In this document: positions 7,355-33,634 of the stretch, piece after piece
Numbering within the stretch: position 1 is the stretch's first letter
Layout of the letters: each line of letters begins with the position of its first letter
NCBI RefSeq assembly: GCF_014698305.1
Contig: NZ_JACJST010000039.1
Location: forward strand, 1-34,326
Reading direction: 5' to 3'
Source: Anabaena lutea FACHB-196
GTDB lineage: Bacteria; Cyanobacteriota; Cyanobacteriia; Cyanobacteriales; Nostocaceae
DNA length: 34,326 bases
Notes under the pieces: model-generated
Told to the model about the DNA's origin: nothing
Database searches by the model: none
What the model saw: the letters and a program-made list of their open reading frames with translations, nothing else
Program-made: the position numbers and the translations under genes

Positions 7355-7386
7355 TAAACAAGTTTTCATCTATTGAAACCACGCTG

Positions 7387-7412
7387 TAGAGACGTTGGCA
7401 GAAATGTCTCTA
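7387..7412. repeat. Hairpin repeat after protease gene
   Basis: TAGAGACGTT / GGCAGA / AATGTCTCTA, a stem with one G-T pair, 32 bases past the protease stop. It belongs to a common cyanobacterial intergenic family; a diverged relative lies at about 30357-30382 after glutamate dehydrogenase. It may act as a weak terminator but lacks a T-run. Confidence 0.5.
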
Positions 7413-7554
7413 TAGGGGGTTTAATTTATTCTATTTAGTTGGTTTACCTGAAAATAGTTGTTAGTTTTTTATATATAAACAAATTGGACAAAAATAGCAT
7501 TCTTGCCGATAATGACATAGAGGGTGATTTGTCAGCAAAAGTGTAAATTTACTA

Positions 7555-8733
7555 ATGACATCTATAATATTTATTCACGGCACTGGGGTAAGAAAAGCGG
7601 AATATAACGAAACGTTGAAGTTAATTGAGCAAAAGCTACTTAGCCAACGTTCTGATTTAATAGTGCTTCCTTGTTTATGGGGTGAAACTTTGGGGATAAA
7701 GTTAAATGCTCAAGGTGCATCTATTCCCCTGTATGATGCAACTCTAGCGTTAGGTGACAAAGAAGAAGACGCAGCAATTATCCTTTGGCAACAATTGTAT
7801 CGTGATCCGCTGTATGAATTGCGGGTGTTATCACTCAAGCCAGTGGAAGGAAGTAATAATCCGTTTGGGGAACAGCCGAGCGATCGCATACAATCAGTTT
7901 TAGCAACCTACAATCCCACACCAGAACTACAAACACAACTAGCAGCAGCGGGAATTACTGAAGAATTTACTCCAGCTTTAGCAAAAGTTACTCACAGTGA
8001 ACCCTACAACCTCGCCTTGCTAACAGCAGCAGATTCCCTGTATGATTTGTGTTTAGCGATATCAAGAGCGATAATTGCTCAGGCAATGTTTGACAGTCAG
8101 GAAGAAGACAAGTATCGGCTAATACTCACTGATGCAGAATTGCGAGATAGGTTAGTTGAAAGCCTGACTCTGACTTTGACAGAACCAGAATTAGGGTTAG
8201 GGAACTGGACATTACAAAAAATCTCTCAACTTGCACAACCAATAGGTACTAATTGGGTAAAACGCCGACGTGGTGCAATTACCAATTCAGTATCGCTTAT
8301 GCCTGGAGATATTTTGCTATATCAAGCCAGGGGTGAGCAAATTCGCGCTTTTATTCGGGAAACAATAGCCAATGCTGAACCACCAGTAGTCTTACTCTGT
8401 CATAGTTTAGGCGGTATCGCTTGTGTTGACTTGCTGGTGAAAGAAGAATTACCGCAGGTGGAATTATTAATTACAGTTGGTTCTCAAGCGCCGTTTCTAT
8501 ATGAAATTAACGCTTTACCCAGTTTAGAATTTGGTCAACCTTTACCCGCACATTTCCCGCAGTGGTTGAATATTTATGATTTACGGGATTTTCTCAGTTA
8601 TATTGGTGCTAAAGTTTTCCCGAATCAAGTAGAAGATGAGAAGGTAGATAATAAACAACCATTTCCCCAAGCACATGGCGCATATTGGACAAACAACGCA
8701 ACTTGGAAAGCGATAATCCCCAAACTACCATGA
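7555..8733 (+). CDS. Alpha/beta-hydrolase (lipase/esterase-like), partner of caspase-STAND gene
   Basis: A 392-residue alpha/beta-hydrolase-fold protein. The oxyanion-type motif IIFIHGTG is at residues 4-11. The nucleophile elbow is LLCHSLGG with Ser284. Candidate acid residues are Asp342 or Asp345 (IYDLRDFLSYIG), and the candidate catalytic His is His374 (QAHGAYW). A helical insert with no named domain spans about 60-260, so the fold core is split, as in PGAP1/lipase-like cytoplasmic hydrolases. There is no signal peptide. Its TGA overlaps the ATG of the caspase-STAND gene (ATGA), which strongly suggests coupled translation and a shared function. Substrate unknown; a phospholipase or esterase effector under control of the STAND protein is the favoured inference. 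Confidence 0.85.
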   Translation: MTSIIFIHGTGVRKAEYNETLKLIEQKLLSQRSDLIVLPCLWGETLGIKLNAQGASIPLYDATLALGDKEEDAAIILWQQLYRDPLYELRVLSLKPVEGSNNPFGEQPSDRIQSVLATYNPTPELQTQLAAAGITEEFTPALAKVTHSEPYNLALLTAADSLYDLCLAISRAIIAQAMFDSQEEDKYRLILTDAELRDRLVESLTLTLTEPELGLGNWTLQKISQLAQPIGTNWVKRRRGAITNSVSLMPGDILLYQARGEQIRAFIRETIANAEPPVVLLCHSLGGIACVDLLVKEELPQVELLITVGSQAPFLYEINALPSLEFGQPLPAHFPQWLNIYDLRDFLSYIGAKVFPNQVEDEKVDNKQPFPQAHGAYWTNNATWKAIIPKLP

Positions 8734-11522
8734 TCAATTTTACCGCTAAACCAGAGCGGACTTATGCTCTAGTTGTTGGAATAGAGAAGTATCAAAATCC
8801 AGATTTTAATGTTAAGAACGGTGGGGGACCAGCCATTGACGCGCTGAAATTTTATACTTGGTTAATTCAGTGCGGTGTACCAAGGGATAATATTTGTTTG
8901 TGTTTATCTTATTTAGAAGAAAATAAGCATTTATTTTCTACCTTAAACTCACAAAATAATCATCCTACTGAGGCTAATATTGATAAACTCATTACAGAAT
9001 TTTTATTACCAAAAGAAGGCGATTTAATTTACATTTTTTGGGCAGGACATGGTTTAATTGATTTTGAAATAACTCGCAGATTATTATGTGCTGATGCTGT
9101 AAATGATAATTGGCGAAATATAGATTTTAAATCCTTACAGGATTTTCTAAATTCAAGGTCTAAAATCCAACAACATATCTATATTATTGATGCTTGTGCT
9201 AATTACATTCGAGAGTCTCAAAGAAATGAATTAATTGATATTGGAGGTAAGACCTTTCCAAGAGGAGACCGGAAACCCGATATTAAGCAATTTATTTTAC
9301 TAGCTACAAGAGAGGGAGAAAAAGCTATAGTTAATTCCCCAGAAAAAACAGGGTATTTTTCCCAAGCCGTCAGGGAAGCTTTAGGACAAGAACCGCCAGA
9401 TATTTGGCCTCCCGATATGCTGAGTGTTGCTGATAGAGTTAAACAGCAATTTGCAAGTTTAGATAAACAACAATTACCCACATATTATTTTTATCAAACT
9501 TGGGATGGTGATAAATATAGTGAACAACCATTCACAAAGTCAATTACTCCCCAAAATCTTCCCCGCAGTAGTGTAATTAAATTTGTGGGACGAGAAACAG
9601 CACTGACAGAATTACACCAGAAATTACAACAAAGAGAACGAGTTGCAATTACCGCTATTGCTGGTATGGGTGGTGTAGGTAAAACCGAATTAGCCTTGCA
9701 ATATGCTTTACATTATTGGGAACAAGGGACATATCCTGGTGGTGTTTGTTGGTTGCGGGTAAGAGATGAAGATATAGGAACTCAAATTTTACAGTTTGCT
9801 ATTAATAAATTAGGCTTAAAACTGCCGGAAGATTTTGATTTAGCAGATAAAATTGATTACTGTTGGCGACGATGGCAAGATGGTGATGTTTTAATCATCC
9901 TTGATGATGTTACAAAATATGAGCAAATCCAAGATTATTTACCGCCCAGTTTGCCAAAGTTTAAATTTCGGGTACTTGTCACCACTAGAATACAGCAGTT
10001 AGGTGAATCTTTTCAAAAGTTAGCTTTAGGTGTTTTAGATGAAACTGCTGCTTTAGAGTTGCTAATTTCATTTGTTGGTAATGAACGAATTCACAGAGAA
10101 ATAAATGCAGCAAAACAACTTTGTGCTGATTTAGGATATTTGCCTTTAGGTTTAGAATTAGTAGCGCGATATTTGCAACGCAAAGAGGATGTATCCCTGA
10201 TTGTAATGCGGGAAAGATTGGCAGAGAAGCGGCTGCAACATCGTTCTCTACAAAATCCATCATCAGAGATGACAGCAAAACTGGGAGTGCAAGCAGCCTT
10301 TGAGTTGAGTTGGCAGGAATTAGATAATGAAGCACAAAGATTAGCTTGCCTGTTAAGTATTTTTGCTCTTGCTCCCATTCCTTGGCATTTAGTAGAACGC
10401 TCTTTACCTGATCAAGATGCAGAAGATTTGGAAGATTTGAGAGATGATTTTTTATTGCAGTTGAGTTTAATCGAACGCACAGGAACAGGCATTTATCGAA
10501 TACATCAACTAATTCGAGAATTTTTGCGCGATCAACGAGAAAAATTAGCTGATGCTGATGAACTAAAGCTCAGTTTCTGTCAGACCATAGCACAAATAGG
10601 GCATAAAATTCCGCAGACAGCTACTCAAAATGAAATTGCAGAAGTCACTCTTGCTATTCCTCACCTTGAGGAAGTTGCAACCGTGTATCAAGATTGGCTA
10701 AGTGATGAGGATTTAATTTTGTCTTTTGCTGCTTTGGGTCAATTCTATGAAGTTCAAGGAAGCTATGAGCAAGCCTTACCTTGGCGTAAAGAATGTTTAT
10801 CAGTTGCGAAACAATGTTTGGGAGAATCACACCCCGATGTCGCCTCTAGCCTGAATAATCTTGCAGGAAACTACTTCTCACAAGGAAGATACAGTGAAGC
10901 CGAACCCTTGTTGCTCCAAGCTTTGGAATTATATAAACGCCTGATGGGAGAATCAAACCTAGATGTCCCCACTAGCCTGAATAATTTGGCATTACTCTAT
11001 CACTCACAAGGAAGGTACAACGAGGCAGAACCTTTGTTCACACAAGCTTTGGAATTAACAAAACAATTGCTGGGAGAATCACACCCTAATGTAGCACAAA
11101 GCCTGAATAATTTGGCATTACTCTATCACTCACAAGGAAGGTACAACGAGGCAGAACCTTTGTTCACACAAGCTTTGGAAATGAGAAAACAACTGCTGGG
11201 ACAATCACACCACTATGTAGCAACTAGCCTCCAGAATCTGGCAAAACTTTACCATTCACAAGGAAGGTACAACGAGGCAGAACCTTTGTTCACACAAGCT
11301 TTGGAAATGATAAAAGAACTGCTGGGAGAATCACACCACTATATAGCAACTATTCTCAATAATCTGGCAGCACTCTACTATTCCAAAGGTAGATATGCAG
11401 AAGCAGAACTCTTGTCTATCCAAGCTTTGGAAATTGCTGAACAACAGCTAGGGGTAAATCATCCCAAAACTATTAACTACCGTAATAATCTGCAATATTT
11501 ACGTGATAATTACAAACCATAA
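8730..11522 (+). CDS. Caspase-like protease / NB-ARC / TPR STAND protein
   Basis: A 930-residue three-part protein. Residues about 10-220 are a caspase-fold (C14-like) peptidase with catalytic His107 (FWAGHGLI) and Cys156 (YIIDACANY). Residues about 283-560 are an NB-ARC STAND ATPase with Walker A GMGGVGKT (312-319), Walker B VLIILDDV (387-394), RVLVTTR (414-420) and the GYLPLGLE motif (about 469-476). A winged-helix-like part follows. Residues about 690-915 are 42-residue TPR units (NLALLYHSQGRYNEAEPLFT). Such STAND proteins are thought to oligomerise on sensing a trigger through the repeats and switch on the effector domain. A longer frame begins at 8685, but ATG 8730 overlaps the hydrolase stop as ATGA and is preferred. 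Likely role: regulated cell death, antiviral or stress response. Confidence 0.92.
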   Translation: MINFTAKPERTYALVVGIEKYQNPDFNVKNGGGPAIDALKFYTWLIQCGVPRDNICLCLSYLEENKHLFSTLNSQNNHPTEANIDKLITEFLLPKEGDLIYIFWAGHGLIDFEITRRLLCADAVNDNWRNIDFKSLQDFLNSRSKIQQHIYIIDACANYIRESQRNELIDIGGKTFPRGDRKPDIKQFILLATREGEKAIVNSPEKTGYFSQAVREALGQEPPDIWPPDMLSVADRVKQQFASLDKQQLPTYYFYQTWDGDKYSEQPFTKSITPQNLPRSSVIKFVGRETALTELHQKLQQRERVAITAIAGMGGVGKTELALQYALHYWEQGTYPGGVCWLRVRDEDIGTQILQFAINKLGLKLPEDFDLADKIDYCWRRWQDGDVLIILDDVTKYEQIQDYLPPSLPKFKFRVLVTTRIQQLGESFQKLALGVLDETAALELLISFVGNERIHREINAAKQLCADLGYLPLGLELVARYLQRKEDVSLIVMRERLAEKRLQHRSLQNPSSEMTAKLGVQAAFELSWQELDNEAQRLACLLSIFALAPIPWHLVERSLPDQDAEDLEDLRDDFLLQLSLIERTGTGIYRIHQLIREFLRDQREKLADADELKLSFCQTIAQIGHKIPQTATQNEIAEVTLAIPHLEEVATVYQDWLSDEDLILSFAALGQFYEVQGSYEQALPWRKECLSVAKQCLGESHPDVASSLNNLAGNYFSQGRYSEAEPLLLQALELYKRLMGESNLDVPTSLNNLALLYHSQGRYNEAEPLFTQALELTKQLLGESHPNVAQSLNNLALLYHSQGRYNEAEPLFTQALEMRKQLLGQSHHYVATSLQNLAKLYHSQGRYNEAEPLFTQALEMIKELLGESHHYIATILNNLAALYYSKGRYAEAELLSIQALEIAEQQLGVNHPKTINYRNNLQYLRDNYKP
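10975..11352 (+). repeat. 126-bp tandem repeats encoding TPR units
   Basis: Three consecutive in-frame 126-bp units begin at about 10975, 11101 and 11227, each encoding one 42-residue TPR. The first two are almost identical over about 90 bases, including GGAAGGTACAACGAGGCAGA. This near-identity shows recent duplication or gene conversion within the sensor half of the STAND protein. Confidence 0.85.
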
Positions 11523-20159: not shown

Positions 20160-20222
20160 ATCGTAGGGTGGGTATGGCTACGCAGGCTATAGGAAGGTAG
20201 TCCGTAACCCACCATAAATTTA
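20160..20222. repeat. Diverged dispersed palindromic repeat
   Basis: GTAGGGTGGGTATGGCTACGC on the left and GTCCGTAACCCACCATAAATT on the right form an imperfect stem related to the palindrome at 3551. It lies between the convergent carotenoid oxygenase and tandem-globin genes. The rest of the 280-base gap holds nothing I can support. Confidence 0.5.
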
Positions 20223-20428
20223 ATGGAATGTCTCTACAACGGTTCTAGGATATGCATATTTCATTTCTGAAAATGTTTATTAAAGTTTATATAATGCCTT
20301 CATAGGTTAATAAAACATTTTCATTAGCATCGTTTAAACCCTCTATCATAAGCAGTTTTGGACTCGGGACTGTAGCTAGACGAGATGCAAAGTGCTGTAA
20401 AAGGAATTTAATTATAGTATCCATCGAT

Positions 20429-22450
20429 TTAAGAGCGATCGCTAACTGAAGATTTATATCGTGAGCCATCAGGCATAATCGCACCTTCTAGGAAAGCACT
20501 ACTTAGTTCATAATCACTCACCTTAGCATTTTTGAGATTAGCACCAGTTAGGTAAGCTCCTTCCAGGTTCGCACCACTTAAACTAGCATCTCTCAAATCT
20601 GCACCATTCAAGTTAGCATTTTTCAAATCTGCACAAATCAAATTCGCATTACTGAGATTGGCACTATTAAGGTTAGCTTCACTCAAGCGAGCAAAACCCA
20701 GTTTTGCATGACTTAAATTTGCACCACTAAGTTTAACCTGACTGAGATTAGCATTATCTAAATTGGCATAGCTCAAATTAGCATTTGTAAAATCGCTTTC
20801 TATTAAATTGGCTTTACTCAAATTGGCATGAGGAAGATTAATATCTACTAACTCTGCACCAGGAGCATCCAAACCTCTCAGAGAAACACCATCCTCATTC
20901 AAATCTTGCAGTGCCAAAATTCTCGCATAACTAACTTTAACATCGTGTGCTGCATCAACCGTACTCCAGGCTTGATAATGAAATTGTTTTCTGCGATCTG
21001 GAGCTTCTTTAATAAATAAAACTAGCGCCACCACTAGACTGATAGTATCAGCAGCACCTAAAACTTCTGCTAGTAAAGAGTTGTCATCGACAATTACAAG
21101 AACTACCGTAAACATAACTGCCGAAATAATAGCGACTAACCATACTGGTGCTATCCAGAAAGCATCAATAAGTTTAGCAGGAAGTTGTTTGAGGACTTCA
21201 CTTAATGGCTGTTCAGATATTTTGGTTTTAAATTGCTGATAATTAGCGGTAATATTATTGATAATTTCTTTTAAAACTTCACCATCTAACTGAATTGATA
21301 TCAGAGATTTTTTCTCTAGCTCTGCTGAGGGCTGAAATAGCTGAGATTCTTTTTTAATTTCGGTTTTTAATGTTGCAGATTTTGATACAATAAAACGTTT
21401 ATCCGCTTGGACAGGTTTTGGTAAAACAGCAGGTTTCTCAGCTTGGACAACTTGAGGCGAAGATTCTTCCCCCGCACCTTTTAACATCAACGCAGTAATT
21501 GCTCTATAAGCATTTAGCCAAGCTTTTTTAACTTCAGGAGTCCAATCTTCTTGGAGATACTGCTCAAACGTCATTAGCAGTGCTTCTCCCACCGGTCTAT
21601 AATATTTGGGAATGGCTCCATAACCAACGTGTCTACCTCCTAAAGCATTGAGAGCTGGCCCTAAAGCTTCTGGGTTGCGGAGATTTTCTACTACCAAAAC
21701 CAGAGAATTTAACAGTTTTTTCTCTTGGTTTTTCATATCTGTTTTAGTAAACAGTGGTTTCACTTCTGGGTGAGCTTTAAACAAATTTTCATAAAAGCTG
21801 GCTGCAAATTCATCAGCACGAGGTTTAACTTTTTCAAAACTATTTACCAATATTTCTACAGGTAATTCTGAAGATTCTTCTGGTATTTCTGTTAATATTT
21901 GCTCCGCTACTTTTACTTGGGGAATTTCCTCAATTTTTTGCTCAATTGGTTTTGTAGTTGCTTGTGCTGCTTGTGCTTCTTGTTGTTCTGAATTTGCTGC
22001 TATCTCAGAGTTATCTAATTTAACTTGTGTTGTTGGTACATGATCTACACCTGCACCTTTTAACATCAAAGTAGTAATAGCTGTAAAAGCATCTAACCAG
22101 GCTTTTTTAACTTCAGAAGTCCAATCTTCGCCAAGATACTGCTCAAACGCCAACAGCAGTGCTTCTCCCACTGGTTCATAATAATTGGGAATAGCTCCAT
22201 AACCAACGTGTCTACCTCCTAGAGCATTGAGAACTGGCCCTAAAGCTTCTGGGTTGCGGAGATTTTCTACCACTAAAACCAGGGAATTTAACAGCTTTTT
22301 CTGTTGATTTACCATATCAGTATTGGCAAATAACGGTTTCACCTCTGGGTGAGCGTTAAACAAATTCTCATAGAAGCTGGCTGCAAATTCATTAGCGCGA
22401 GGTTTAACCTTCTCAAAACTTTGCTCTAAGAGTTCAATGTTTAACGTCAT
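20429..22450 (-). CDS. Tandem globin / two-TM / pentapeptide-repeat fusion protein
   Basis: A 673-residue protein with an unusual layout. Two flavohaemoglobin-like globin domains occupy residues 1-135 and about 197-328, with probable proximal haem ligands His81 and His274 (both in GGRHVGYGAIP.YY.PVGEALL). They are close to 80% identical, so they arose by recent duplication. A 65-residue Gln/Glu/Ala linker separates them. A low-complexity region follows, then two membrane helices (about 427-453 and 458-481), then a pentapeptide-repeat rod (about 520-657, HANLSKANLIESDFTNANL). Globins and rod should both face the cytoplasm. There is no reductase domain. It probably senses or handles O2, NO or reactive oxygen at the membrane. 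It is the last of four minus-strand genes led by an NADPH oxidase, which could be its source of reactive species. Confidence 0.88.
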   Translation of the reverse strand: MTLNIELLEQSFEKVKPRANEFAASFYENLFNAHPEVKPLFANTDMVNQQKKLLNSLVLVVENLRNPEALGPVLNALGGRHVGYGAIPNYYEPVGEALLLAFEQYLGEDWTSEVKKAWLDAFTAITTLMLKGAGVDHVPTTQVKLDNSEIAANSEQQEAQAAQATTKPIEQKIEEIPQVKVAEQILTEIPEESSELPVEILVNSFEKVKPRADEFAASFYENLFKAHPEVKPLFTKTDMKNQEKKLLNSLVLVVENLRNPEALGPALNALGGRHVGYGAIPKYYRPVGEALLMTFEQYLQEDWTPEVKKAWLNAYRAITALMLKGAGEESSPQVVQAEKPAVLPKPVQADKRFIVSKSATLKTEIKKESQLFQPSAELEKKSLISIQLDGEVLKEIINNITANYQQFKTKISEQPLSEVLKQLPAKLIDAFWIAPVWLVAIISAVMFTVVLVIVDDNSLLAEVLGAADTISLVVALVLFIKEAPDRRKQFHYQAWSTVDAAHDVKVSYARILALQDLNEDGVSLRGLDAPGAELVDINLPHANLSKANLIESDFTNANLSYANLDNANLSQVKLSGANLSHAKLGFARLSEANLNSANLSNANLICADLKNANLNGADLRDASLSGANLEGAYLTGANLKNAKVSDYELSSAFLEGAIMPDGSRYKSSVSDRS

Positions 22451-22463
22451 ACTGGTTTATTGA

Positions 22464-22675
22464 TTATTTGGCGAGAATTATATCAGAGTAAGGAAAAGAC
22501 CAAATTGGACGCATTTTAAAAAATTCTTCTAAGGAAATTTTCAAGTCTTTATTATCATCATATTTTTCCATGTATTCATCAACTTCATTAGTTAGAAGGT
22601 AATCTCCATGCTAGCAATAGTGTCTTTAACTCGAACTCATCAATGATACTGACATATTTAGTTTCCTTGTTTCAT
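22464..22675 (-). pseudogene. Remnant of an EF-hand protein gene
   Basis: Reading the minus strand, one frame gives NKETKYVSIIDEFELKTLL, which resembles the second half of an EF-hand loop plus exit helix. After a one-base shift near 22608, the other frame gives GDYLLTNEVDEYMEKYDDNK and then DLKISLEEFFKMRPIW, ending at TAA 22464-22466. The second part contains an EF-hand loop DDNKDLKISLEE with acidic residues at positions 1, 3, 5 and 12. An in-frame TGA (about 22672-22674) and the shift break the gene, and no start is visible. It sits in the 263-base gap between the tandem-globin gene and the EF-hand phosphatase fusion, so it may be a lost calcium-binding member of the cluster. Confidence 0.55.
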
Positions 22676-22713
22676 TGATGAGATTCTCTTTATTAAGATG
22701 AAATTTTTGGAAG

Positions 22714-24756
22714 TTAATTGTTTACTAATGTAGAACCAGAGACAACATTAAGGTTAGCAACTAACCCATAGGTTGATACATACTCTTCTAACTCTTGCAA
22801 ATCAACTGTGCCATTTTTATCTGCGTCTAGAGTGTTGAACAGATAATCAGTTATGTATCTTCTGATTTCTTGGGAGCTACGTTCACCTGTTGTCATATCC
22901 TCTATTCGTCCTAAAAGCTCCATAATTTCGTCTTTATCGAGTGCTTTACTTCCATCTGTATCCAATTCCAGAAAAAGCTTTCTGATATCTTCTGTTGCCA
23001 TTCTGGAAGAGCGTAAAGTTTCTCTCAATAATTCATTACCAAATGAATTCATAAACAATATTTGTTCGATGAGTGGTATGGAGAAAAACCCTAATGCTGC
23101 CCAAAAAATTGCATATCTTACAGCTTCTGGATTTGCAGTTGTAGTCACTCCCAGAAAAAGAGAAGCCCACAGGAAAAAATTAGGATTCACAAGCAGAATA
23201 TAAGCATCCCTAGCTTCTGCCTTATTCAGCTTGCCTGTTGTCAATACTGAAGTTAATACGGCAGAGATACGGATTAAGATAAAAACTAATGTTGCTACTG
23301 CTAGTTGTTGCAAACAGGCTAGGGAACGGTTCGGATCTGTTGATGAAAATAAGTCGGAAATGAATGTTGGCGGAGTAAACTGAAACCCAGTTGCCAAAGC
23401 CATGAATGCGACAGCAAGCACTCCAATAAATTTCCAGTTCTTACTGTGGTGGTTTGATTCAACAGGAGATTTATCACGCCAAAATTGGGCTAAAGCTCCC
23501 GGTATTGCCAGACCAAGAATGAGAATAATTCCGAAAAATATCAGGCTTGAAGAGTTAATTGGTAATTGTTTTGCCAAGCCAAATGTGACAACTAGAGCAA
23601 CTGGAGTGATGATTGATAAAGTCCTGGATAAGATAGCCGAAGGATAAAGATTACCGCCCCAAAGTACCGATAAAACTGGGGAAGTAAGAGCGGGTGGAAC
23701 CATCAAAAAAAGCACCCACATAACTTTGTACAAATCCCCTGGACTTTGATACAAAATTCCCGAAAATATTAAAAATAGCCCAACTATCCATCTTACTAAC
23801 ATCCACCCGTAGACTATATACTTCACAGTTGAAGTTACTTTGCGTTTACTCGCTGCAAAGTCAATATCCAGGTAAGTATAAAACGTCGAAGCAGCCAGAC
23901 AAACAACAATTATGCCTCGAAATAGTTCTGATGGTATTCCCCCTGTGGAGGCACTTAATGCCCTTACCAAGCATCCTAGTAAGAAAGCAGCAGCATAGAG
24001 AAAAATTGCCCACATAATTGACAGATCATTGATCTGTTTACGCACAGAAGCTGCACCACCGGATTCCTTATCACGAAACTTGACTAACTCCTCTTGAGAG
24101 AGTGCTTTACCGTTAGGAAGTTTCAGATGTTTATAAGCAGTGGGAGGCAGATTACTTAAATAAAGTGCTAACGGTTCTAATACATATTGATGGCACACCA
24201 CCAGAACAGTTTCACCCCGTTCTAAATGTGGTACGATTCGCTCTTGGTAAAAACTTGCAGCGCGTCCGTAAACTTGTGCAATTTTCTCGCCAGCCGGAGG
24301 TGCTTCGTTATGTGAATGCAACATTTCCTCGAAGCCTTCGTAGCTCAAAGCCAGACGCAGCAAATTCAAATTACGACCGGCAAAAATGCCAAAAGATTTT
24401 TCACTAATTCGATGGTCGATTTGAATAGGAACATCAGAGGATTTCAAAGCCTGACTTTCAGCAAGGGCAATTTCACAAGTTTGTCGTGCGCGTCTCATGT
24501 GAGAGACATATACTGCATCGAACTTCATCCCTTTTTTCTTGAGGTCAGAACCTGCTTGACGCGCTTGCAATCTACCAAATGCAGTCAAATCTACATCTAA
24601 TACACCTGCAAAAATATTGCGTTCATTGCTGGTACTTTCTCCATGCCGAATGAAATACACCTTTCCTTTTTGATGATTGTTTTCTCCTACTTGGTTAGAT
24701 GGTTCCGAGTTAGGAATTATATTTGATGATAGATGCTCTTTTGGTAAATTATTCAT
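22714..24756 (-). CDS. Histidine-phosphatase / polytopic membrane / EF-hand fusion protein
   Basis: A 680-residue protein in three parts. Residues about 32-215 are a histidine-phosphatase (phosphoglycerate-mutase-like) domain with the phospho-acceptor motif FIRHGES (His38), the acid region ISEKSFG (Glu119) and second catalytic His189 (VVCHQYV). Residues about 245-570 hold about nine or ten membrane helices with a transporter-like look (LMVPPALTSPVLSVLWGG), faintly recalling BASS/AEC carriers, though I cannot assign a family. Residues 599-610 (DTDGSKALDKDE) and 644-655 (DADKNGTVDLQE) are two EF-hand calcium loops, and the first lacks the usual central Gly. Calcium probably controls the enzyme or channel part. 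It follows the 105-residue gene by 52 bases, so the two are probably co-transcribed in the NADPH-oxidase cluster. The phosphatase substrate is unknown. Confidence 0.85.
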   Translation of the reverse strand: MNNLPKEHLSSNIIPNSEPSNQVGENNHQKGKVYFIRHGESTSNERNIFAGVLDVDLTAFGRLQARQAGSDLKKKGMKFDAVYVSHMRRARQTCEIALAESQALKSSDVPIQIDHRISEKSFGIFAGRNLNLLRLALSYEGFEEMLHSHNEAPPAGEKIAQVYGRAASFYQERIVPHLERGETVLVVCHQYVLEPLALYLSNLPPTAYKHLKLPNGKALSQEELVKFRDKESGGAASVRKQINDLSIMWAIFLYAAAFLLGCLVRALSASTGGIPSELFRGIIVVCLAASTFYTYLDIDFAASKRKVTSTVKYIVYGWMLVRWIVGLFLIFSGILYQSPGDLYKVMWVLFLMVPPALTSPVLSVLWGGNLYPSAILSRTLSIITPVALVVTFGLAKQLPINSSSLIFFGIILILGLAIPGALAQFWRDKSPVESNHHSKNWKFIGVLAVAFMALATGFQFTPPTFISDLFSSTDPNRSLACLQQLAVATLVFILIRISAVLTSVLTTGKLNKAEARDAYILLVNPNFFLWASLFLGVTTTANPEAVRYAIFWAALGFFSIPLIEQILFMNSFGNELLRETLRSSRMATEDIRKLFLELDTDGSKALDKDEIMELLGRIEDMTTGERSSQEIRRYITDYLFNTLDADKNGTVDLQELEEYVSTYGLVANLNVVSGSTLVNN

Positions 24757-24808
24757 ACTGTTTATAGAATCCCTGTAACCAGAAAATATCTGTGATTAAA
24801 AAAAGCAA

Positions 24809-25126
24809 TTACAAATTCAAACTTTCTAATTCCTGCCAAAGCTTATTCATAAAATCATTAGCGTCCTTAATACCCATTTCTCCCAGTGCTTTCCATTCCT
24901 CTGTTGTGTAATCTAAATCCTGTCCCATAATGTCTTGAGTCCAATAAGGCAACTTAGATGGATTTTCCATTAACTCATAAGTTAGCTCCAATATTTTTGT
25001 CCCTGTGGTATTTTCCCTAGCCTTTGTAGCTAAACAAAAAGCCAGTAATTTAGCTAGATTGCTTTCTGGGGGAATAGATATCAGGAAAGCCATATTTTGT
25101 GCCAGAACAAATTTGTCTAATTTCAT
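24809..25126 (-). CDS. Unknown 105-residue protein in NOX cluster
   Basis: A 105-residue soluble protein starting MKLDKFVLAQNMAFLISIPP, with a C-terminal half rich in Glu, Asp and Trp (YTTEEWKALGEMGIKDANDF). There is no signal peptide, membrane helix, Cys pair or clear EF-hand loop. I do not recognise the family. The ATG has GAGAAG just upstream. It lies 197 bases after the NADPH oxidase gene and 52 bases before the phosphatase fusion, all on the minus strand, and this conserved spacing makes a real gene likely. A small helical regulator or adaptor is possible. Confidence 0.65.
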   Translation of the reverse strand: MKLDKFVLAQNMAFLISIPPESNLAKLLAFCLATKARENTTGTKILELTYELMENPSKLPYWTQDIMGQDLDYTTEEWKALGEMGIKDANDFMNKLWQELESLNL

Positions 25127-25323
25127 TCTTCTCGCTTTTTTACTTCAACAACACTTGTTAAACTTTCAGGAAAAATCTTGCTCAAGTAATAGATGATTGC
25201 CTATCTATTGTGAGCGAATTATGAATTGAATAATCCATACTTTTTTGATTTTTTTCCTAATTTACAAGTATTTTAGCAACTATTTTCATAATTTTGGCAA
25301 CAGATTCATTATCTAAATTTAGG

Positions 25324-27333
25324 CTAGAAATTTTCTTTCCTATAGCCAAATCCGTATTTGCTACAAAGACTCTTCAACTGTGTTGACAGTCCAGGCGGCC
25401 CACAGAAAAATACATCAACTTTATGGGGTGCGTGCTGTTTTGCTAGATCACTAAAAATCTCATCCCAATCTGGACGACCAGTTTTTGTGCGACTCTTTAA
25501 GCCTGTGATTAAATCCACCTTTGTCTGAGAGTGCAACAAATCCATCGCCACAAACAGGGTGCTAGACTTCATATCTGATTTTTGCTGTGCGCCTGTGAGA
25601 TATAAATTGATATCAAAGAGTTTGTTAGTGTCTTCAACTTCGATTTGTGATAACAGTTCCACAAACCATTCAAATGCATTTTGTTCTCGATTTAGCCAGT
25701 AAAAATGTACCTTCTGCAAATTGATGTTAGAAGAATTATGTTGATTGCGGTACAAAATACTTTTCAGGATAGAAGCAAAGGGAGTTACACCAATACCAGC
25801 ACCAATTAACACAGCATATTTAGATTCAAAAATATGTGTACTTGGTGTACCATAAGGCCCATCTAAATAAACTGGAACTCCCTGCTCAGGTTGAGAACTA
25901 CTTGAACGTATCCATTCTTCCCTTTGCTCTCGAAAAAGTTGATATAACTTACCAGTCCAACTTCCTGCTGCGCGTATATGTAAAGATAAAATATCTGGTG
26001 TTTCTGGGGCGCTGCTAATTGTAAATGGATGCCATTCATATTTGGAAATACTGGGACATTTAATAAATAAATAGTCTCCTGGTTGATAGTTGAAAGCTCC
26101 TGGACGTTGAACTTCTAAACCTAAAACTTTAGAGGGAAGTAAAGAGGCATTAACTACAACAGTTGCTTGTTTTGTTGCCCGCCAACGAATAACTAATTCA
26201 ATCACAAATCCCAGTCCAGGGAATAAAACCCACTGCCAAAAAACTGGCCCATGAATTAACGCCAGGATAAACCACAAACCGTACCCCATGTGAGCTATAT
26301 AGAACAGCGTAAATTTTCCACCTTGTCGGATAGGTGCTTGCGCTGTTACCCACATAATTGTAAACACTAGCAGTAATAAAAATCCCGATAAACCAGCTTT
26401 TGTCCCCAATAAACTTTGTAGAAAGGGCGCAGGTAAGGTAGTGTAATTGAGAAAATGTGCGATCGTATGCACAATTGCCAAGGCAAACATGACTTGACCT
26501 ATAAGCTTATGAAACTCGATGCTTTCGTCTATGGGTAAATAGTCATTAAGGCTACTTTTGCGAAGCCAAGTCATAAAATGCCGTAGCATGGGGATGAGAA
26601 TTAGCGCCCCGTTGAAGTTAAGTGTTGCACCACAACCTCTGGCAATTTGAACATATACATTTGCCCCTAAATTTGCATATCGATCAACTGCCCCAAAGAA
26701 AAGAAATATATTGACAGCAAAATAGAGGGCTAAAAAAGCAATTTTGACCCAATTGTTTTCAATGTAATGCTTGATGTAATCCTTTTTTGTCCGCTTGTTT
26801 TCTGGAGAAGCAACTGTTTGAGAGTTTTGCTTGTGAGGTCTGAGCCAGCTAACAGGGCTGACGGTCATTGCTTCAATTAAATCAGGAAATTTGCCGATTA
26901 AACCTTTAAATTCTGCAAAAGAAATTTCCCCACTGTTGTCTCTGTCGGCTTCTAGAAACAATATATCGACTAAATCGTTAATTTGTTCCGGTTTGAAACT
27001 GAGATTATTTTCATTCAGACTCGCAGTAATCAAGTGAGCAATTTCTGCTTTGTCAATGCAATCATCCCCATTGATATCATGTAATTTATAAGCAAATTCA
27101 AGTTTTTGTTCTGTAGTTGCAAAAACAAGGTTTTCTACAGCAGCTAAAAATTCTTCTATTTGGATAGTGCCACTTTTATCAGTATCGAATATGGCAAAAA
27201 GTCTGTCGGCAAAATATTCGTCTTTCAAGCCTAATGATTTCTTAAACTCAGCTTGATCAACTTGTTTATCTTCTCCAGCAATCTTGGTAAATACCCGTTT
27301 TAATTCTTCTAAAGTTTGTTTTGGGGTTTCCAT
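25324..27333 (-). CDS. NOX5-type NADPH oxidase with N-terminal EF-hands
   Basis: A 669-residue membrane oxidase that would pass electrons from NADPH via FAD and two haems to O2, making superoxide on the far side of the membrane. EF-hand region residues 1-145: loops at 50-61 (DTDKSGTIQIEE), 86-97 (DINGDDCIDKAE) and 130-141 (DRDNSGEISFAE), plus a degenerate first one near 20-30. Six helices lie at about 195-385. Haem ligands are probably His275/His289 and His348/His361, with the 14- and 13-residue spacing of NOX enzymes. The FAD motif is HPFTISSAP (435-443). The NADPH motifs are GAGIGVTPF (511-519) and FFCGPPG (643-649), and an aromatic Phe is last. This matches the order of animal NOX5 and the structurally known Cylindrospermum stagnale NOX5. 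An in-frame stop just upstream fixes the ATG. Confidence 0.95.
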   Translation of the reverse strand: METPKQTLEELKRVFTKIAGEDKQVDQAEFKKSLGLKDEYFADRLFAIFDTDKSGTIQIEEFLAAVENLVFATTEQKLEFAYKLHDINGDDCIDKAEIAHLITASLNENNLSFKPEQINDLVDILFLEADRDNSGEISFAEFKGLIGKFPDLIEAMTVSPVSWLRPHKQNSQTVASPENKRTKKDYIKHYIENNWVKIAFLALYFAVNIFLFFGAVDRYANLGANVYVQIARGCGATLNFNGALILIPMLRHFMTWLRKSSLNDYLPIDESIEFHKLIGQVMFALAIVHTIAHFLNYTTLPAPFLQSLLGTKAGLSGFLLLLVFTIMWVTAQAPIRQGGKFTLFYIAHMGYGLWFILALIHGPVFWQWVLFPGLGFVIELVIRWRATKQATVVVNASLLPSKVLGLEVQRPGAFNYQPGDYLFIKCPSISKYEWHPFTISSAPETPDILSLHIRAAGSWTGKLYQLFREQREEWIRSSSSQPEQGVPVYLDGPYGTPSTHIFESKYAVLIGAGIGVTPFASILKSILYRNQHNSSNINLQKVHFYWLNREQNAFEWFVELLSQIEVEDTNKLFDINLYLTGAQQKSDMKSSTLFVAMDLLHSQTKVDLITGLKSRTKTGRPDWDEIFSDLAKQHAPHKVDVFFCGPPGLSTQLKSLCSKYGFGYRKENF

Positions 27334-27400
27334 TGTTTCTTTTATTTATAAGAGTTATTTATTTCTAAATGGAGTTTAGTAATCTAATTGTTAATTTCCA

Positions 27401-27424
27401 CTGTTGAGTTCTCATATTCAACAG
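27401..27424. promoter_or_regulatory. Candidate LysR operator, CTGTTGA-N10-TCAACAG
   Basis: A perfect 7-bp-arm palindrome with a 10-base spacer sits in the 184-base divergent gap between the NADPH oxidase and lysR starts, 68 bases from the former and 93 from the latter. LysR regulators usually bind such an interrupted dyad in the shared promoter region. The assignment is positional; no binding has been shown. Confidence 0.5.
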
Positions 27425-27473
27425 ATTTCTAATAATTCAGCATAATAAAATACATAAATAAAGTCTAATGCTT

Positions 27474-27479
27474 TATAAT
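27474..27479 (+). promoter_or_regulatory. Candidate -10 box of lysR
   Basis: A perfect TATAAT begins 44 bases before the lysR ATG. The -35 position (about 27451-27456, TACATA) is poor, which fits a regulated promoter. Confidence 0.35.
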
Positions 27480-27517
27480 GATGGCAGTTATAACTTTTAA
27501 GCATACACCACAGAATT

Positions 27518-28417
27518 ATGGAATTACGGCATCTTAAATATTTCATAGCGGTTGCGGAAAACCTCAATTTTAGTCGTGCTGCTACGCAACTGTATATTTC
27601 ACAACCTGCGTTAAGCCGTCAAATAAAAAATCTTGAAGATGAACTGACTGTTATCCTCTTTATCCGACAATCGGATGGGTTGAAACTCACTGAAGCTGGG
27701 AAATTTTTTCTCGAACAAGCAAAGGATATTTTGAATCGCAGTAATATCGCTATTCAAACCATCAAGAATAATTACGCAAATACAAATGATCCTTTAGTAG
27801 TTGGCTATATCCCAACTATCTTGGAGAGTTTTTTAGGTGAAGCGTTACATCGTTTTGGAGTTACCTATCCTGACATTGCTGTACGTTTCCAAGAGATGTT
27901 TCCTAGTGACCAAGTGAAAGCGTTGTGGAATAGAACCATTGATATTGCTTTTATGGGTAATCCACCGGATGATTTAGAGCCAGAATTTATAGTTAAATGT
28001 GTTAAGGAAGTTATTATCGATGCTTTACTACCTGATACGCATACATTGGCATCTCTTCCTTCGATTAATCTGATAAAACTTGCATCTGAAAAATTTATTG
28101 GGATGTCTGAAGAAACTTTTCCAGGGCGGAATGATCGTATTCGTGATACTTGCCAAAAAGCTGGTTTCATACCGAATATCCATCTGTTTGCTGATAGTCA
28201 TGCTTCCATGATCGCTCTTGTTGCATCAGGCCAAGGGGTAGCAGTCATGCCACGAGAAGCAAGCGCATTGCCTCATCCTAAAGTTGTGTTTATGCCTCTT
28301 CATCATCCCATATACTACGCCCGATCAACTGCGGTATGGAGGAAAGAAAGACCTTCTCAATCTTTAGATAAATTTCTCAAAATTCTCTTTAATAAAGATA
28401 AAATTCCTGAAACTTAA
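27518..28417 (+). CDS. LysR-type transcriptional regulator
   Basis: A 299-residue LysR-family protein. The N-terminal winged helix-turn-helix (residues 1-60) shows the classic MELRHLKYFIAVAENLNFSR, then AATQLYISQPALSRQIKNLE. The periplasmic-binding-like effector domain covers about 90-290 (PLVVGYIPTILESF, LVASGQGVAVMPR). It is divergent from the NADPH oxidase gene across 184 bases that contain a perfect dyad. In this family that arrangement usually means it controls both itself and the neighbouring operon. The co-inducer cannot be predicted. No conserved Cys pair of the OxyR type is visible, so direct peroxide sensing is not indicated. Confidence 0.93.
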   Translation: MELRHLKYFIAVAENLNFSRAATQLYISQPALSRQIKNLEDELTVILFIRQSDGLKLTEAGKFFLEQAKDILNRSNIAIQTIKNNYANTNDPLVVGYIPTILESFLGEALHRFGVTYPDIAVRFQEMFPSDQVKALWNRTIDIAFMGNPPDDLEPEFIVKCVKEVIIDALLPDTHTLASLPSINLIKLASEKFIGMSEETFPGRNDRIRDTCQKAGFIPNIHLFADSHASMIALVASGQGVAVMPREASALPHPKVVFMPLHHPIYYARSTAVWRKERPSQSLDKFLKILFNKDKIPET

Positions 28418-29003
28418 AAAATCTGCGCTATAAAAAAATATAATTATATTTAGTAATACTTTGTAAAAACACTATTTTAGTTTTATGTGTTCATACCATA
28501 ACTTAATTCTTTTTGGAGATATCTATTAGACATCTCCGAAAACTATCTTTTGAATAGATGTTGGAGTAGTTTTCTGGAAAATTGTGTGTTCATAGTTCTT
28601 ATTGTTTTGTAATATCTACAGTTCTTTAACCACATACCGGAACACCATTTCTTAAGATTGGTTCTGTTGGACGGAGATTACCTAATATGTCAAAACATAT
28701 ATTAATTGGTGTTATTGCCTATAAATACAGCCCCGGTATAGTGTTTAAACTTGTGTGTTCGTCAAGTTACGTAATGATATACAGAATTTACACCCGTTTT
28801 GATGAAATAGTTATATTTATTAATCTGACGTGACTTGTGCGTAAGTCTTAGATAAGCTGTTGTGCATTGGAATCTACCCTTCATTGCATCCCCGTGCCAA
28901 TAAAACTGTAACAAAAACTACAAAATTGATATTTTCTGGAAAAAAGAGGGTAAGCTAATCATATAAATCCGGTTCACGAAATAGCGTGATGAGGAGTTCT
29001 CTT
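28418..29003. other. Gene-free region upstream of glutamate dehydrogenase
   Basis: No supported ORF. A possible hairpin TTTTTGGAGAT / ATCTCCGAAAA (28510-28520 and 28532-28542, one G-T pair) lies about 93 bases after lysR, and GAAAACTA (28538) can instead pair with TAGTTTTC (about 28567-28574). A small dyad ATATGT-CAAA-ACATAT lies near 28685-28700. The gdh promoter must lie here, but no boxes are clear. Confidence 0.4.
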
Positions 29004-30532: not shown

Positions 30533-31867
30533 TTAAAAGCTGACAATATCCAGTTGACTGATACTATTAATTTCCGTAATCGAATTATAGTTCCAGCTAT
30601 TTTCAAATACTAATCTTTCCTCACGTCTGCTCTGAGAATCGTAGCGAATTTCTGTGACAAATTTTATTTCTGACTTCGATAAGTCAATATTATTTAGTCG
30701 CAGTTTGTTAAATTCTATTACCTCTGGAGTTAAAAAGTATTTTTTTCCTTTCTTGGCAATCTGTCTTGCTCCTGTACTGTTGTAAAATTGCACCCAACGA
30801 TTGTTTTGACGGGCGTAGATTGTGTAGACTACATTTGCGTATTTAGTAACTGGTTTTTCTAGGATATCTAGATGTAAAACGAAGGCTCTTTGATTGGAAT
30901 TAACTAACCTGCCTAATTTAAATAAGCAATTCCAGTCTTTGCTCCTAAACGCTTTTGATGAGTAACGATTCTTTACTTGACGATATTCGCGTCTGCGATC
31001 ATCATCGTCATCATCACGTCTGCGATAGTTGTTGTTATCATCATAATCCTTTTTGGTAGTTCTGTAACTGACTGTCGTTAGCTGACTGATACTACTAATT
31101 TCCGTAATCGAACTATAGTTCCACACATCTTCAAATACTAATCTTTGGTCTCGTTTGTTGTTGGAATCGTAGCGAATTTCGGTGACAAATCTTAAGTCTG
31201 ATCTTGACCAATCAAGATTACCTACCCGCAGTTTGTTAAATTCTATTACCTCTGGGGTCAAGGAGAATTTTCCTCTTTTCTTTTCAATCAGTCTTGATCC
31301 GGTACTGCTATAAAATTGCACCCAACGATTGTTTTGACGAGCGTAGACTGTGTAGACGACATTTGCGTATTTAGTAACTGGTTTTTCTAAGATATCTAGG
31401 TGTATGACCAATGCTTTCCGGTTGGAATTAACTAACCTTCCTACTTTGAAGAAGCAATTCCAATCTCTGATTCGATATAATTTTGATGAACGATGATATC
31501 CCCCCCTGTAATCGTCACCTCTGCGATAATTATCACGGTCATCATCATTGTCATAACGTCTGCGATTATTTCTACGATCATCGTCATCATCATCGTCATC
31601 GTCATCACCACCTCGGCGGCGATTGTTGTTATTATCATCATCTTTATCTTTTTTAGACAGGAGAAAATTTGATTCTTCTCCAGTCAACTGATTTATAAAT
31701 GAGTAGTTTTTTTGCTGTGGTTCACCAACAGTTTTATCTTGTATATCTGCTATTTGAGTTGTTAAAGAGAGAACTTGAGAGGGAACAGAGACAGCAGCTA
31801 TGACGGATAGGCTTGTAACTGTTAAAACATCTTTGCAAAACAACGTGAAGGAAGACTTGTGTGACAT
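30533..31867 (-). CDS. Exported protein with two copies of an unknown domain and Asp/Arg-rich linkers
   Basis: A 444-residue protein with a probable signal peptide (hydrophobic residues about 14-33, VLTVTSLSVIAAVSVPSQV). An Asp/Arg/Asn-rich stretch follows (about 74-125, with a run of nine or more Asp). Then comes a domain of about 135 residues, seen twice (about 130-265 and 308-444), each containing DWNC, LEKPVTKYANVVYT, YARQNNRWVQFY, LTPEVIEFNKLR and FVTEIRYDS. The copies are about 75% identical, and a second acidic/basic linker separates them. I do not recognise the domain. Each copy has one Cys, so a disulphide between copies is possible. The acidic linkers may bind cations. Location: periplasm or cell surface. 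The downstream end abuts a MITE. Confidence 0.75.
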   Translation of the reverse strand: MSHKSSFTLFCKDVLTVTSLSVIAAVSVPSQVLSLTTQIADIQDKTVGEPQQKNYSFINQLTGEESNFLLSKKDKDDDNNNNRRRGGDDDDDDDDDDRRNNRRRYDNDDDRDNYRRGDDYRGGYHRSSKLYRIRDWNCFFKVGRLVNSNRKALVIHLDILEKPVTKYANVVYTVYARQNNRWVQFYSSTGSRLIEKKRGKFSLTPEVIEFNKLRVGNLDWSRSDLRFVTEIRYDSNNKRDQRLVFEDVWNYSSITEISSISQLTTVSYRTTKKDYDDNNNYRRRDDDDDDRRREYRQVKNRYSSKAFRSKDWNCLFKLGRLVNSNQRAFVLHLDILEKPVTKYANVVYTIYARQNNRWVQFYNSTGARQIAKKGKKYFLTPEVIEFNKLRLNNIDLSKSEIKFVTEIRYDSQSRREERLVFENSWNYNSITEINSISQLDIVSF

Positions 31868-32069: not shown

Positions 32070-32165
32070 ATGGAAACGAGTACTCAAAACACCGTTCCCC
32101 ATGATCCTGAAATTTTAAGCAATACTGGTACAAGAAGGACGGTTTACAGAACATTACAAAAATGA
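32070..32165 (+). CDS. Possible 31-residue upstream ORF coupled to pepA
   Basis: ATG 32070 opens [20 protein letters not shown] followed by [11 protein letters not shown] and stops at TGA 32163-32165, which overlaps the pepA ATG as ATGA. No clear ribosome site precedes it. Neither does one precede pepA, so coupled translation would explain how pepA is started. A chance frame remains possible. Confidence 0.35.
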
Positions 32166-33634
32166 CGATTCAACTTAGTGATAAAGCTTTATTAGACTGG
32201 AGTGGTGATACTTTAGCGATCGCCTTATTTGAAGATGCAGTAGAATTAACTGGTGAGTTGGCAGCTTTAGATGAGAAATTCGCCGGCATCTTCAAAGAAC
32301 TGATTGCCGAAGAAGAATTTACTGGTAAAGTCAATAGCACCATTTTCACGCGGGTAGGTGCTGGAAACAATGTGCGGAAATTGATTTTGGTCGGTTTAGG
32401 TAAACCAGACGCGCTGAAACTAGAAACTTTACGCCGTGTTGCGGCTACGGTAGCGCGAACTGCTAAAAAGCAAAAAACCAAAACTCTGGGAATTAGTCTA
32501 CCAGTATTTAACAACGATCCTGCGGCAACGGCTCAAGCTATAGCCGAAGGCGCACAACTGGCACTTTACCAAGATACGCGCTTTAAATCCGAGCCAGAAG
32601 ATAAAAGTCCCAATATCGAAACAATTGATTTACTAGGATTAACTGGACAAGAAGCAGCCATTACCCGTGCTAATCAAATTGTTTCTGGGGTAATTTTAGC
32701 ACGGCAGTTAGTAGCAGCCCCAGCTAATGCAGTGACACCTATTACTATGGCAGAAACTGCGATCGCGATCGCAAAAGATCACGGTTTAGAAATCCAAGTC
32801 TTGGAAAAAGAAGAATGTGAAAAACTAGGTATGGGTGCATTTTTAGGAGTAGCCCAAGCCTCCGACTTACCACCGAAATTTATTCACCTCATCTACAAAC
32901 CAGAAGGAACACCGAAACGCAAATTAGCAATTGTCGGTAAAGGTTTAACCTTTGACTCCGGTGGACTTAATATCAAAGGTGCAGGAAGCGGCATCGAAAC
33001 CATGAAAATTGACATGGGTGGTGCAGCGGCCACATTAGGTGCAGCTAAAGCCATTGGACAGTTAAAGCCAGATGTGGAAGTTCACTTTATTTCCGCAGTT
33101 ACGGAAAATATGATTAGCGGTCGTGCTATGCGCCCAGGAGACATCTTAACCGCTTCTAATGGCAAAACAATCGAAGTCAACAACACTGACGCAGAAGGGC
33201 GTTTAACCTTGGCTGATGCCTTGGTATATACCGAAAAATTGGGAGTAGATGCGATCGTTGATTTAGCTACTCTCACAGGTGCTTGTGTGGTAGCTTTGGG
33301 TGACGATATCGCCGGTTTATTTACTCCTGATGATGCTGTCGCTTCCCAACTGCAAACAGCCTCAGAAGCCGCAGGTGAGAAAATTTGGCGGATGCCAATG
33401 GAAGACAAATATTTTGACGGGTTAAAATCGGGTATTGCGGATATGAAAAACACAGGCCCCCGTTATGGTGGTTCCATTACTGCGGCTTTGTTCCTCAAGC
33501 AATTTGTGAAAGATACCCCTTGGGCGCATTTAGATATTGCCGGCCCCGTTTGGACAGATAAGGAAAATGGCTACAACGGTGCAGGTGCAACCGGCTTTGG
33601 TGTCAGGACTTTGGTTAGTTGGGTTTTGAGTTAG
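32162..33634 (+). CDS. pepA: Leucyl aminopeptidase (M17 family)
   Basis: A 490-residue cytoplasmic two-metal aminopeptidase that trims N-terminal residues from peptides and usually works as a hexamer. The C-terminal catalytic domain holds the metal and active-site residues Lys260 and Asp265 ([11 protein letters not shown]), Lys272, Asp284 (MKIDMGGAA), and Asp343, Glu345 and Arg347 in the family signature NTDAEGRL. The N-terminal half is the normal non-catalytic domain. All key residues are present and length is normal. A small ORF ends over its start codon (ATGA). Downstream lie TTTTCTCG repeats and a small hairpin. Confidence 0.95.

Follow-up and report, generated by a model that had tools for sequence, protein, structure and literature searches.

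Introduction

The structurally best-known cyanobacterial NADPH oxidase of the NOX5 type is csNOX5 of Cylindrospermum stagnale (K9WT99; PDB codes 5o0x and 5o0t). In the available part of the work on this enzyme it passes electrons from NADPH to O2 in vitro, measured as superoxide in membranes, and is activated by calcium: at 1 mM calcium, cytochrome c reduction by wild-type membranes is about five times faster, and mutation of the aspartates D611 and D631 removes the calcium activation wholly or for the most part (PMC7317449). The same part treats the enzyme alone. A later study states, in its accessible text, that the physiological roles of SpNOX and of CsNOX are not known, and regards acceptors other than O2 as possible (PMC11031084, eLife 2024). 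A 2020 survey of prokaryotic calmodulin-like EF-hand fusions, in the sections available, lists cyanobacterial NADPH oxidase and seven-transmembrane (7TM) fusions, and reports no evidence that bacterial calcium-system domains cooperate within any one clade (PMC7016017). Here we analyze a stretch of 34,326 nucleotides from Anabaena lutea FACHB-196 (contig NZ_JACJST010000039.1; hereafter, the window), in which a csNOX5-like gene (NOX) is clustered with genes for a small protein of 105 residues (S105), a histidine phosphatase fused to EF-hands (HPEF), a double globin (GLB) and a divergent LysR-type regulator. The comparison adds the genomic company of NOX to what is described for csNOX5, and provides testable hypotheses for its function, namely how S105, the tethered globins and the EF-hand phosphatase might act on the oxidase or together with it.

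Results

Organization of the locus and the NOX oxidase

Six-frame reading and Pfam searches place four consecutive genes on the minus strand within positions 20429–27333 of the window: NOX (25324..27333), S105 (24809..25126), HPEF (22714..24756) and GLB (20429..22450). The LysR gene (27518..28417, plus strand) diverges from them. A preliminary description of this DNA, made from the sequence alone, had proposed the same arrangement, and its coordinates, strands and intergenic gaps of 197, 52 and 263 bases are exact. The four genes share one strand, and no terminator-like site was found on that strand in the three gaps, which is weak evidence for a single transcript. Of the encoded proteins, two had been said to carry EF-hand loops, which is borne out by three canonical loops in NOX and two in HPEF. 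Three had been called membrane-bound; hydropathy agrees for NOX and HPEF, both integral, whereas GLB has merely two adjacent transmembrane segments.

Pfam recognizes in NOX the domains EF-hand_7 (2.8e-15), Ferric_reduct (4.8e-11), FAD_binding_8 and NAD_binding_6. The canonical EF-hand loops lie in the N-terminal region, at residues 50, 86 and 130. The ferric-reductase transmembrane domain contains two histidine pairs, H275/H289 and H348/H361, which we take to be the haem ligands, and is accompanied by HPFT at residue 435, presumably the FAD motif, and by GxGxG at 511 and CGPP at 644, presumably the NADPH motifs. The top solved structures include the dehydrogenase and transmembrane domains of csNOX5 (5o0x, 5o0t), with human NOX5 between them. 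The domain order is that of csNOX5, and the alignment offset of 24 residues identifies D587 and D607 of NOX as the conserved equivalents of the activation aspartates D611 and D631. Judged by sequence, NOX is an ortholog of csNOX5; of the two, it is csNOX5 for which calcium-activated superoxide production is shown.

Co-localization across genomes

The 388 genomes of the order were searched with each protein (NOX at E ≤ 1e-60, HPEF at E ≤ 1e-25, S105 at E ≤ 1e-5 and GLB at E ≤ 1e-20). The GLB query was the globin-plus-transmembrane part, and its weaker matches are often single globin domains. NOX occurs in 9 genomes, HPEF in 27, S105 in 54 and GLB-type proteins in 143. According to the preliminary description, NOX homologues regularly lacking these neighbours would speak against a unit; within the order this is not what is found, as S105 lies within 3 kb of NOX in eight of the nine genomes, GLB within 20 kb in eight, and HPEF or its remnant within 30 kb in seven. 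S105 has GLB within 5 kb in at least 45 of its 54 genomes, and 15 of the 27 HPEF genomes carry S105 no farther than 30 kb from HPEF. These distance counts take one S105 per genome (second copies in five are omitted), 30 of the 32 HPEF matches, 78 GLB matches among those listed, and the two NOX matches of genome G373 as one. The GLB matches counted are those listed, and for long queries three candidates per genome were scored in full, so that the S105–GLB counts are lower bounds; G375, scored as lacking GLB, carries a GLB-type open reading frame (ORF) beside S105 (L068).

The joint occurrence is far from the expectation for independent genes when kinship is ignored: S105 is found in 8/9 NOX genomes against 54/388 overall (hypergeometric 7e-7), HPEF in 8/9 NOX genomes (2e-9), and S105 in 20/27 HPEF genomes (1e-13). 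The only NOX genome without S105, G373, is 74% complete; its NOX match is incomplete and shares a contig with pieces of HPEF. The genes thus travel together, as had been proposed, but their centre in the order is not NOX. S105, the component most consistently present in the island family, and GLB form the conserved core, and NOX and HPEF are interchangeable accessories.

The orientation of the genes is largely kept. In distinct loci the same strand is shared by S105 and GLB in 30/34 pairs, NOX and S105 in 10/11, HPEF and S105 in 11/12, and bestrophin and S105 in 8/8, and NOX is divergent from LysR in all four loci that contain both. Order and spacing are variable: HPEF stands before NOX (L005, L025) or after S105 (the window, L017, L018), and in some loci other genes separate S105 from NOX or from GLB. 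Among 16 distinct NOX loci, 11 have S105 in the stretch. The remaining five are L008, L011 (a short contig with an incomplete NOX match and HPEF pieces) and L012–L014 (distant NOX homologues of 47–52% identity), and S105 is absent at E ≤ 0.001 from the genomes of L008, L012, L013 and L014. The association of NOX with S105 is therefore a feature of the close NOX clade, and not one without exceptions. GLB is missing beside S105 in three loci of the order (L069–L071, from G160, G185 and G227), where S105 identity is 46–47%.

Among 242 genomes of the class, 14 contain S105, and ten of the 14 lie outside the order; from six of those ten we read eight stretches, in addition to L009. One (L060) has the order LysR, C10, S105, GLB, with LysR divergent; another (L061) combines two FluC genes, bestrophin and S105. 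In L066, S105 adjoins genes for an adenylate cyclase, an MscS channel and the family c78, and in L062 a short, doubtful globin-like ORF lies near S105.

EF-hand genes at the islands

A broken EF-hand gene had been said to lie among the genes of the cluster. This is correct: the gap between HPEF and GLB (22451..22713, minus strand) is the remnant of a gene for an EF-hand membrane protein of 435 residues (EF435), which is intact in the same genus (L018:5922-7229). The similarity amounts to 87% over 183 bases and 91% over 44 bases by blastn, and to 81% over 43 residues and 89% over 18 by blastx. Both ends of the gap match both ends of the intact gene, and therefore some 1.1 kb of its middle is missing. 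A profile search gives an EF-hand_7 match in the remnant that contains one TAG and one TAA. A related ORF of 99 residues stands before GLB in Tychonema (L006/L025), and in G246 an EF-hand match lies in a 47-residue open frame just before GLB.

At E ≤ 0.001 the whole genome of A. lutea has four EF-hand_7 matches, all of which fall in the cluster (two in NOX, one in HPEF and one in the remnant). The island-free genome of the same genus, G365, has one, in an ORF of 79 residues. S105 itself is not an EF-hand gene. EF-hand genes other than NOX and HPEF were collected from the 18 S105-bearing genomes among 19 searched; three of these genomes contributed none. Ten of these 36 genes lie within 15 kb of S105, against 0.17 expected from genome size, an enrichment of about 60-fold for EF-hand genes of different catalytic type, whose significance is overstated because the genomes were chosen for island genes and the 36 genes (three remnants, several homologous) were counted as independent. 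The calcium/redox theme assigned to the cluster in the preliminary description is sound on two counts, the concentration of EF-hand genes near S105 and the published calcium-activated superoxide production of csNOX5 (PMC7317449, in the part available).

Mobility, divergence and selection

In G365 the BT1 and RPE65 genes are followed by 564 bases and then by GDH. The same position in the window contains the whole cluster, with approximate island borders near 20160 and 28670 (20160..28670). In G246, G094 and G278, GDH is located on another contig, and the island site differs from that of the window.

Lateral transfer was assessed against a marker, the 490-residue gene at 32162-33634, which we take to encode leucyl aminopeptidase, in nine pairs, and additionally against GDH in three. 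Between the window and G260 (Oscillatoriales CG2_30_40_61, another family) the synonymous difference of the marker is 0.755, a saturated value, and those of NOX, S105 and GLB are 0.345, 0.243 and 0.283. The comparison with G225 yields 0.700 for the marker, 0.356 for NOX, 0.661 for S105 and 0.602 for GLB; that with G092 yields 0.722 for the marker, 0.298 for NOX, 0.281 for GLB, 0.565 for HPEF and 0.525 for S105. These unequal values imply that pieces of the island moved recently, across family borders, and separately, yet ended side by side. Even toward G309, of the same genus, the island has its own history, since the marker (0.267) lies below NOX (0.334), S105 (0.364) and GLB (0.294) and above HPEF (0.183). 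Searches of plasmids with NOX, HPEF and S105 gave no match. Taken together, the cluster is very probably a modular island that spreads horizontally.

The dN/dS ratios of the intact genes, computed with two to five relatives each, are 0.10-0.14 for NOX, 0.11-0.12 for HPEF, 0.06-0.14 for S105, 0.18-0.31 for GLB and 0.16-0.21 for LysR, that is, 0.06-0.31 overall in 19 gene pairs. The intact cluster genes are under purifying selection and are maintained.

GLB, HPEF and S105

GLB has two flavohaemoglobin-type globin domains, at about residues 6-130 and 198-325 (two Pfam Globin stretches, 3e-33), two adjacent transmembrane segments within residues 423-484 or so, and C-terminal pentapeptide repeats (5.5e-53). 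Its first globin domain aligns with the single-domain globins 3s1i and 3wfw (fused to Roadblock/LC7) and with flavohaemoglobins; Y27 and H81 align with the tyrosine and histidine of 3ozu and 3s1i, and are presumably Tyr B10 and the proximal His. Unlike these proteins, the GLB family combines at least two tandem globins with two transmembrane helices and pentapeptide repeats, and has no reductase domain in Pfam. GLB scores 137 bits with NF009805 against a cut-off of 432, and is thus not a flavohaemoglobin fusion by this model. A family member of 1041 residues with several tandem globin stretches is encoded at L036:5983-9108. In L043, L045 and L046, from two more distant families, the same four genes (c35-c38), among them a Tll0287-like one, come after a GLB-type gene. 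Two more pentapeptide-repeat proteins, both without globin domains, are encoded upstream in the window (2481-3197 and 3825-5315).

HPEF consists of a branch 1 histidine phosphatase domain (His_Phos_1, residues 33-216), a multi-transmembrane domain at about 240-565, and canonical EF-hands at 599 and 644, with about ten hydrophobic segments in all by hydropathy. R37, H38 and G39 of the RHG motif, E119 and H189 are invariant in 16/16 aligned copies; we assume that these residues are catalytic, with E119 as the catalytic acid and H189 as the second histidine. The RHG motif and other invariant residues are common to HPEF and 2,3-bisphosphoglycerate-dependent phosphoglycerate mutase of the His_Phos_1 family, from which HPEF differs in its fusion to EF-hands and to a multi-transmembrane domain of no known family. 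In NCBIfam the protein scores 92.6 with the subfamily model TIGR01258 (cut-off 81.7) and falls under the cut-offs of the equivalogs listed. HPEF is found as fragments alone in L007/L015, L003, L009, L011 and L030, and in four of these five the first part stands beside later pieces, so that internal loss seems to have broken this gene more than once.

Searches of Pfam, NCBIfam and PADLOC gave no match for S105, a conserved protein. Six helices are predicted, and the structural model has a predicted local distance difference test (pLDDT) value of 86.6. The five window proteins gave no match to the PADLOC defence families at E ≤ 0.01.

The LysR gene and its putative operator

The nearest NCBIfam models of the LysR-type regulator are AlsR, PRK09986, HcaR, GltC, CidR and CynR, and none among the 25 best exceeds its cut-off. 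Neighbours of S105 were clustered in 54 loci, in which five contigs are counted twice (L003/L016, L004/L020, L006/L025, L007/L015 and L010/L032), leaving 49 distinct. LysR occurs in 9/54 (7 of the 49) and also in L060. In Anabaena catenula FACHB-362 (L002) and Cylindrospermum sp. FACHB-282 (L004, with NOX, S105 and GLB in that order) NOX has no LysR gene in view beside it.

The spacer between NOX and LysR (27334..27517, 184 bases), a putative divergent promoter and operator, is conserved at about 90% identity in L016 and L018. Similar copies precede NOX in L015 and, twice each, other island genes in L019 and L023, with weaker similarity in L041 and L042. An alignment of ten stretches (A1) contains the conserved block AAAGTCTAATGC(Y)TTATAA at 27460-27478. 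A search of nine genomes with this 19-base block returned seven copies with no mismatch, all inside islands, one island copy with two mismatches (G260) and five matches elsewhere, each with two mismatches; the reversed control pattern gave one match. No copy was found in G094 or G278, whose islands have no LysR in view. A conserved element of this kind, which may be a LysR-linked operator, accompanies some island copies, and together with S105 could serve as a marker for finding further islands.

On the far side of LysR, the gap to GDH (28418-28985) holds the decayed remains of a small ORF. In Anabaena catenula (L002, about 5982-9600), six related ORFs of 190-213 residues, with starts like MNTQFSRKLLQ, lie between GDH and NOX.

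Accessory genes of other islands

Bestrophin is found in 10/54 loci, with one contig counted twice. Other neighbours encode MscS channels, some with a cyclic-nucleotide domain, CrcB/FluC, EamA, small EF-hand proteins, a dCache-HAMP adenylate cyclase (with a C-terminal globin in L008), and a 5'-nucleotidase with a nucleoside hydrolase. EF-hands are fused to a urea transporter (L027:12099-13772), to arginase (L017:1580-3067) and, in a protein of 797 residues, to an Evr1/Alr domain (L025:1358-3751). A relative of the urea transporter fusion (L058:6060-7736) is located on a different contig, away from S105.

A second travelling module was noticed, in which a dCache-HAMP adenylate cyclase gene is followed by that of an MscS channel with a cyclic-nucleotide domain (L008:12496-17808, L057:11108-16843, L056:1790-5504, L029:11766-15417 and L066:8963-14226). 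A third gene, c78, is present in three of these five loci. The domains, scanned in L008 and L056, suggest a putative channel gated by cyclic AMP.

Discussion

Most parts of the island belong to known families, with the exception of S105, C10 and two membrane domains. The preliminary description knew of no account of this set as a unit, and none appeared as far as our literature search reached; most subscription papers were beyond it. Within that reach, no title or abstract on a NOX5-globin-phosphatase cluster was found, and no work that treats globins together with pentapeptide repeats in cyanobacteria, or a cyanobacterial phosphoglycerate mutase with EF-hands and a transmembrane part. The main text of the 2020 survey, as available, uses none of the words phosphoglycerate, histidine phosphatase, bestrophin or globin (PMC7016017), and the islands described here group many EF-hand fusions. 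They are a direct candidate for the cooperation of bacterial calcium-system domains for which that survey, in its available part, saw no evidence.

We lean slightly toward reading the cluster as a laterally assembled, calcium-responsive membrane effector island. Its core pair would be S105 and the membrane-tethered multi-globin/pentapeptide protein, joined in some copies by the divergent LysR gene. A signal sensed by LysR would switch on the operon, and a subsequent rise in cytosolic calcium would activate effectors already present in the membrane. NOX would then export electrons and make superoxide outside, and HPEF might remove phosphate from a small phosphoester under the control of its EF-hands. 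Close to the membrane, the globins of GLB may bind O2 or NO, either to signal its presence or, in the case of NO, to detoxify it, and S105 could be soluble and pair with the globin protein or with the neighbouring channel; these roles of globin, phosphatase and S105 we infer. The preliminary description had proposed that calcium entry might trigger the cluster, that the globin might handle superoxide or NO, and that the phosphatase might be gated by calcium. Other islands swap or extend the set with bestrophin, MscS channels with or without a cyclic-nucleotide domain, CrcB/FluC, adenylate cyclase, the urea transporter and arginase fusions to EF-hands, and nucleotide or nucleoside hydrolases. 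Because the channels and EF-hand enzymes are so varied, the likely common purpose of the islands is to answer membrane or oxygen stress quickly at the level of ions, redox state and metabolites. A bolder and more tentative proposal is that they constitute a dedicated, exchangeable calcium-response system of bacteria, with S105 and the multi-globin protein as core and LysR as switch, which recruits enzymes and transporters fused to EF-hands (oxidase, phosphatase, arginase, Evr1-type thiol oxidase, urea transporter) as well as channels (bestrophin, cyclic-nucleotide MscS). If so, cyanobacteria would possess calcium effectors acting as a coordinated network, which until now is known from eukaryotes alone.

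Several observations weigh against the effector island. S105 occurs without NOX in 46/54 genomes, and HPEF lies beyond 30 kb of S105 in 12/27, some of them on short contigs. A NOX of 81% identity (L008, Cylindrospermum NIES-4074) comes from a genome that has no S105. Outside the order, GLB is absent beside S105 in six of the eight stretches (L061, L063-L067), which counts against S105 and GLB as a universal pair. HPEF and EF435 are in pieces in several relatives and are therefore dispensable. The S105 model has no match in the PDB at E ≤ 0.001 (Foldseek), the membrane domain of HPEF matches no recognized family or fold, and the HPEF model is of too poor a quality for use.

Shared hot spots could also gather unrelated genes, through recombination at common S105/GLB flanks, with no functional coupling and with the EF-hand theme as an incidental feature. 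The contents of the loci do differ greatly, several genes are decayed, some neighbours have no evident link to calcium or redox (EamA and, nearby, a ClpC-like gene), and a gene family in 4/54 loci (c15) resembles an IS-type TnpB. We nevertheless consider this explanation unlikely, in view of the roughly 60-fold enrichment of EF-hand genes of differing catalytic type, the strand kept in most S105–GLB and NOX–S105 pairs, the difference between the GDH site of the window and the sites in G246, G094 and G278, and the fact that the genes scanned on either side of the cluster in the window included no integrase or transposase. It is also possible, if rather doubtful, that S105 and GLB are a self-standing sensor of O2 or NO, or a haem-based one, to which NOX and HPEF were added late and separately under a shared promoter. 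Such a module would account for the S105–GLB pairs in many genomes without NOX or HPEF, and for the smaller synonymous divergence of NOX than of S105 between the window and both G225 and G092. The finding that NOX stands beside S105 and GLB in different families and in nearly all NOX genomes, having arrived separately in some, is hard to explain without a benefit from this company.

A partnership in NO dioxygenation, in which the globins detoxify NO with electrons from a flavin reductase, and NOX or its dehydrogenase domain stands in for the reductase built into a flavohaemoglobin, appears improbable to us. GLB resembles single-domain and flavohaemoglobin globins and has no reductase, and NOX does possess FAD and NADPH domains. 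Yet most S105–GLB loci have no NOX, and the dehydrogenase of csNOX5 feeds electrons through its own transmembrane domain, according to the part of the work available (PMC7317449).

Other genes of the window

Positions 7555-11522 contain an alpha/beta hydrolase gene that overlaps the gene for a 945-residue protein with NB-ARC and TPR domains, whose residues 1-300 have no Pfam match at the cut-off used. Proteins of this type are often part of conflict or defence systems. Adjoining GDH, a protein of 444 residues (30533-31867) with no family match above cut-off has a 96% counterpart in L002.

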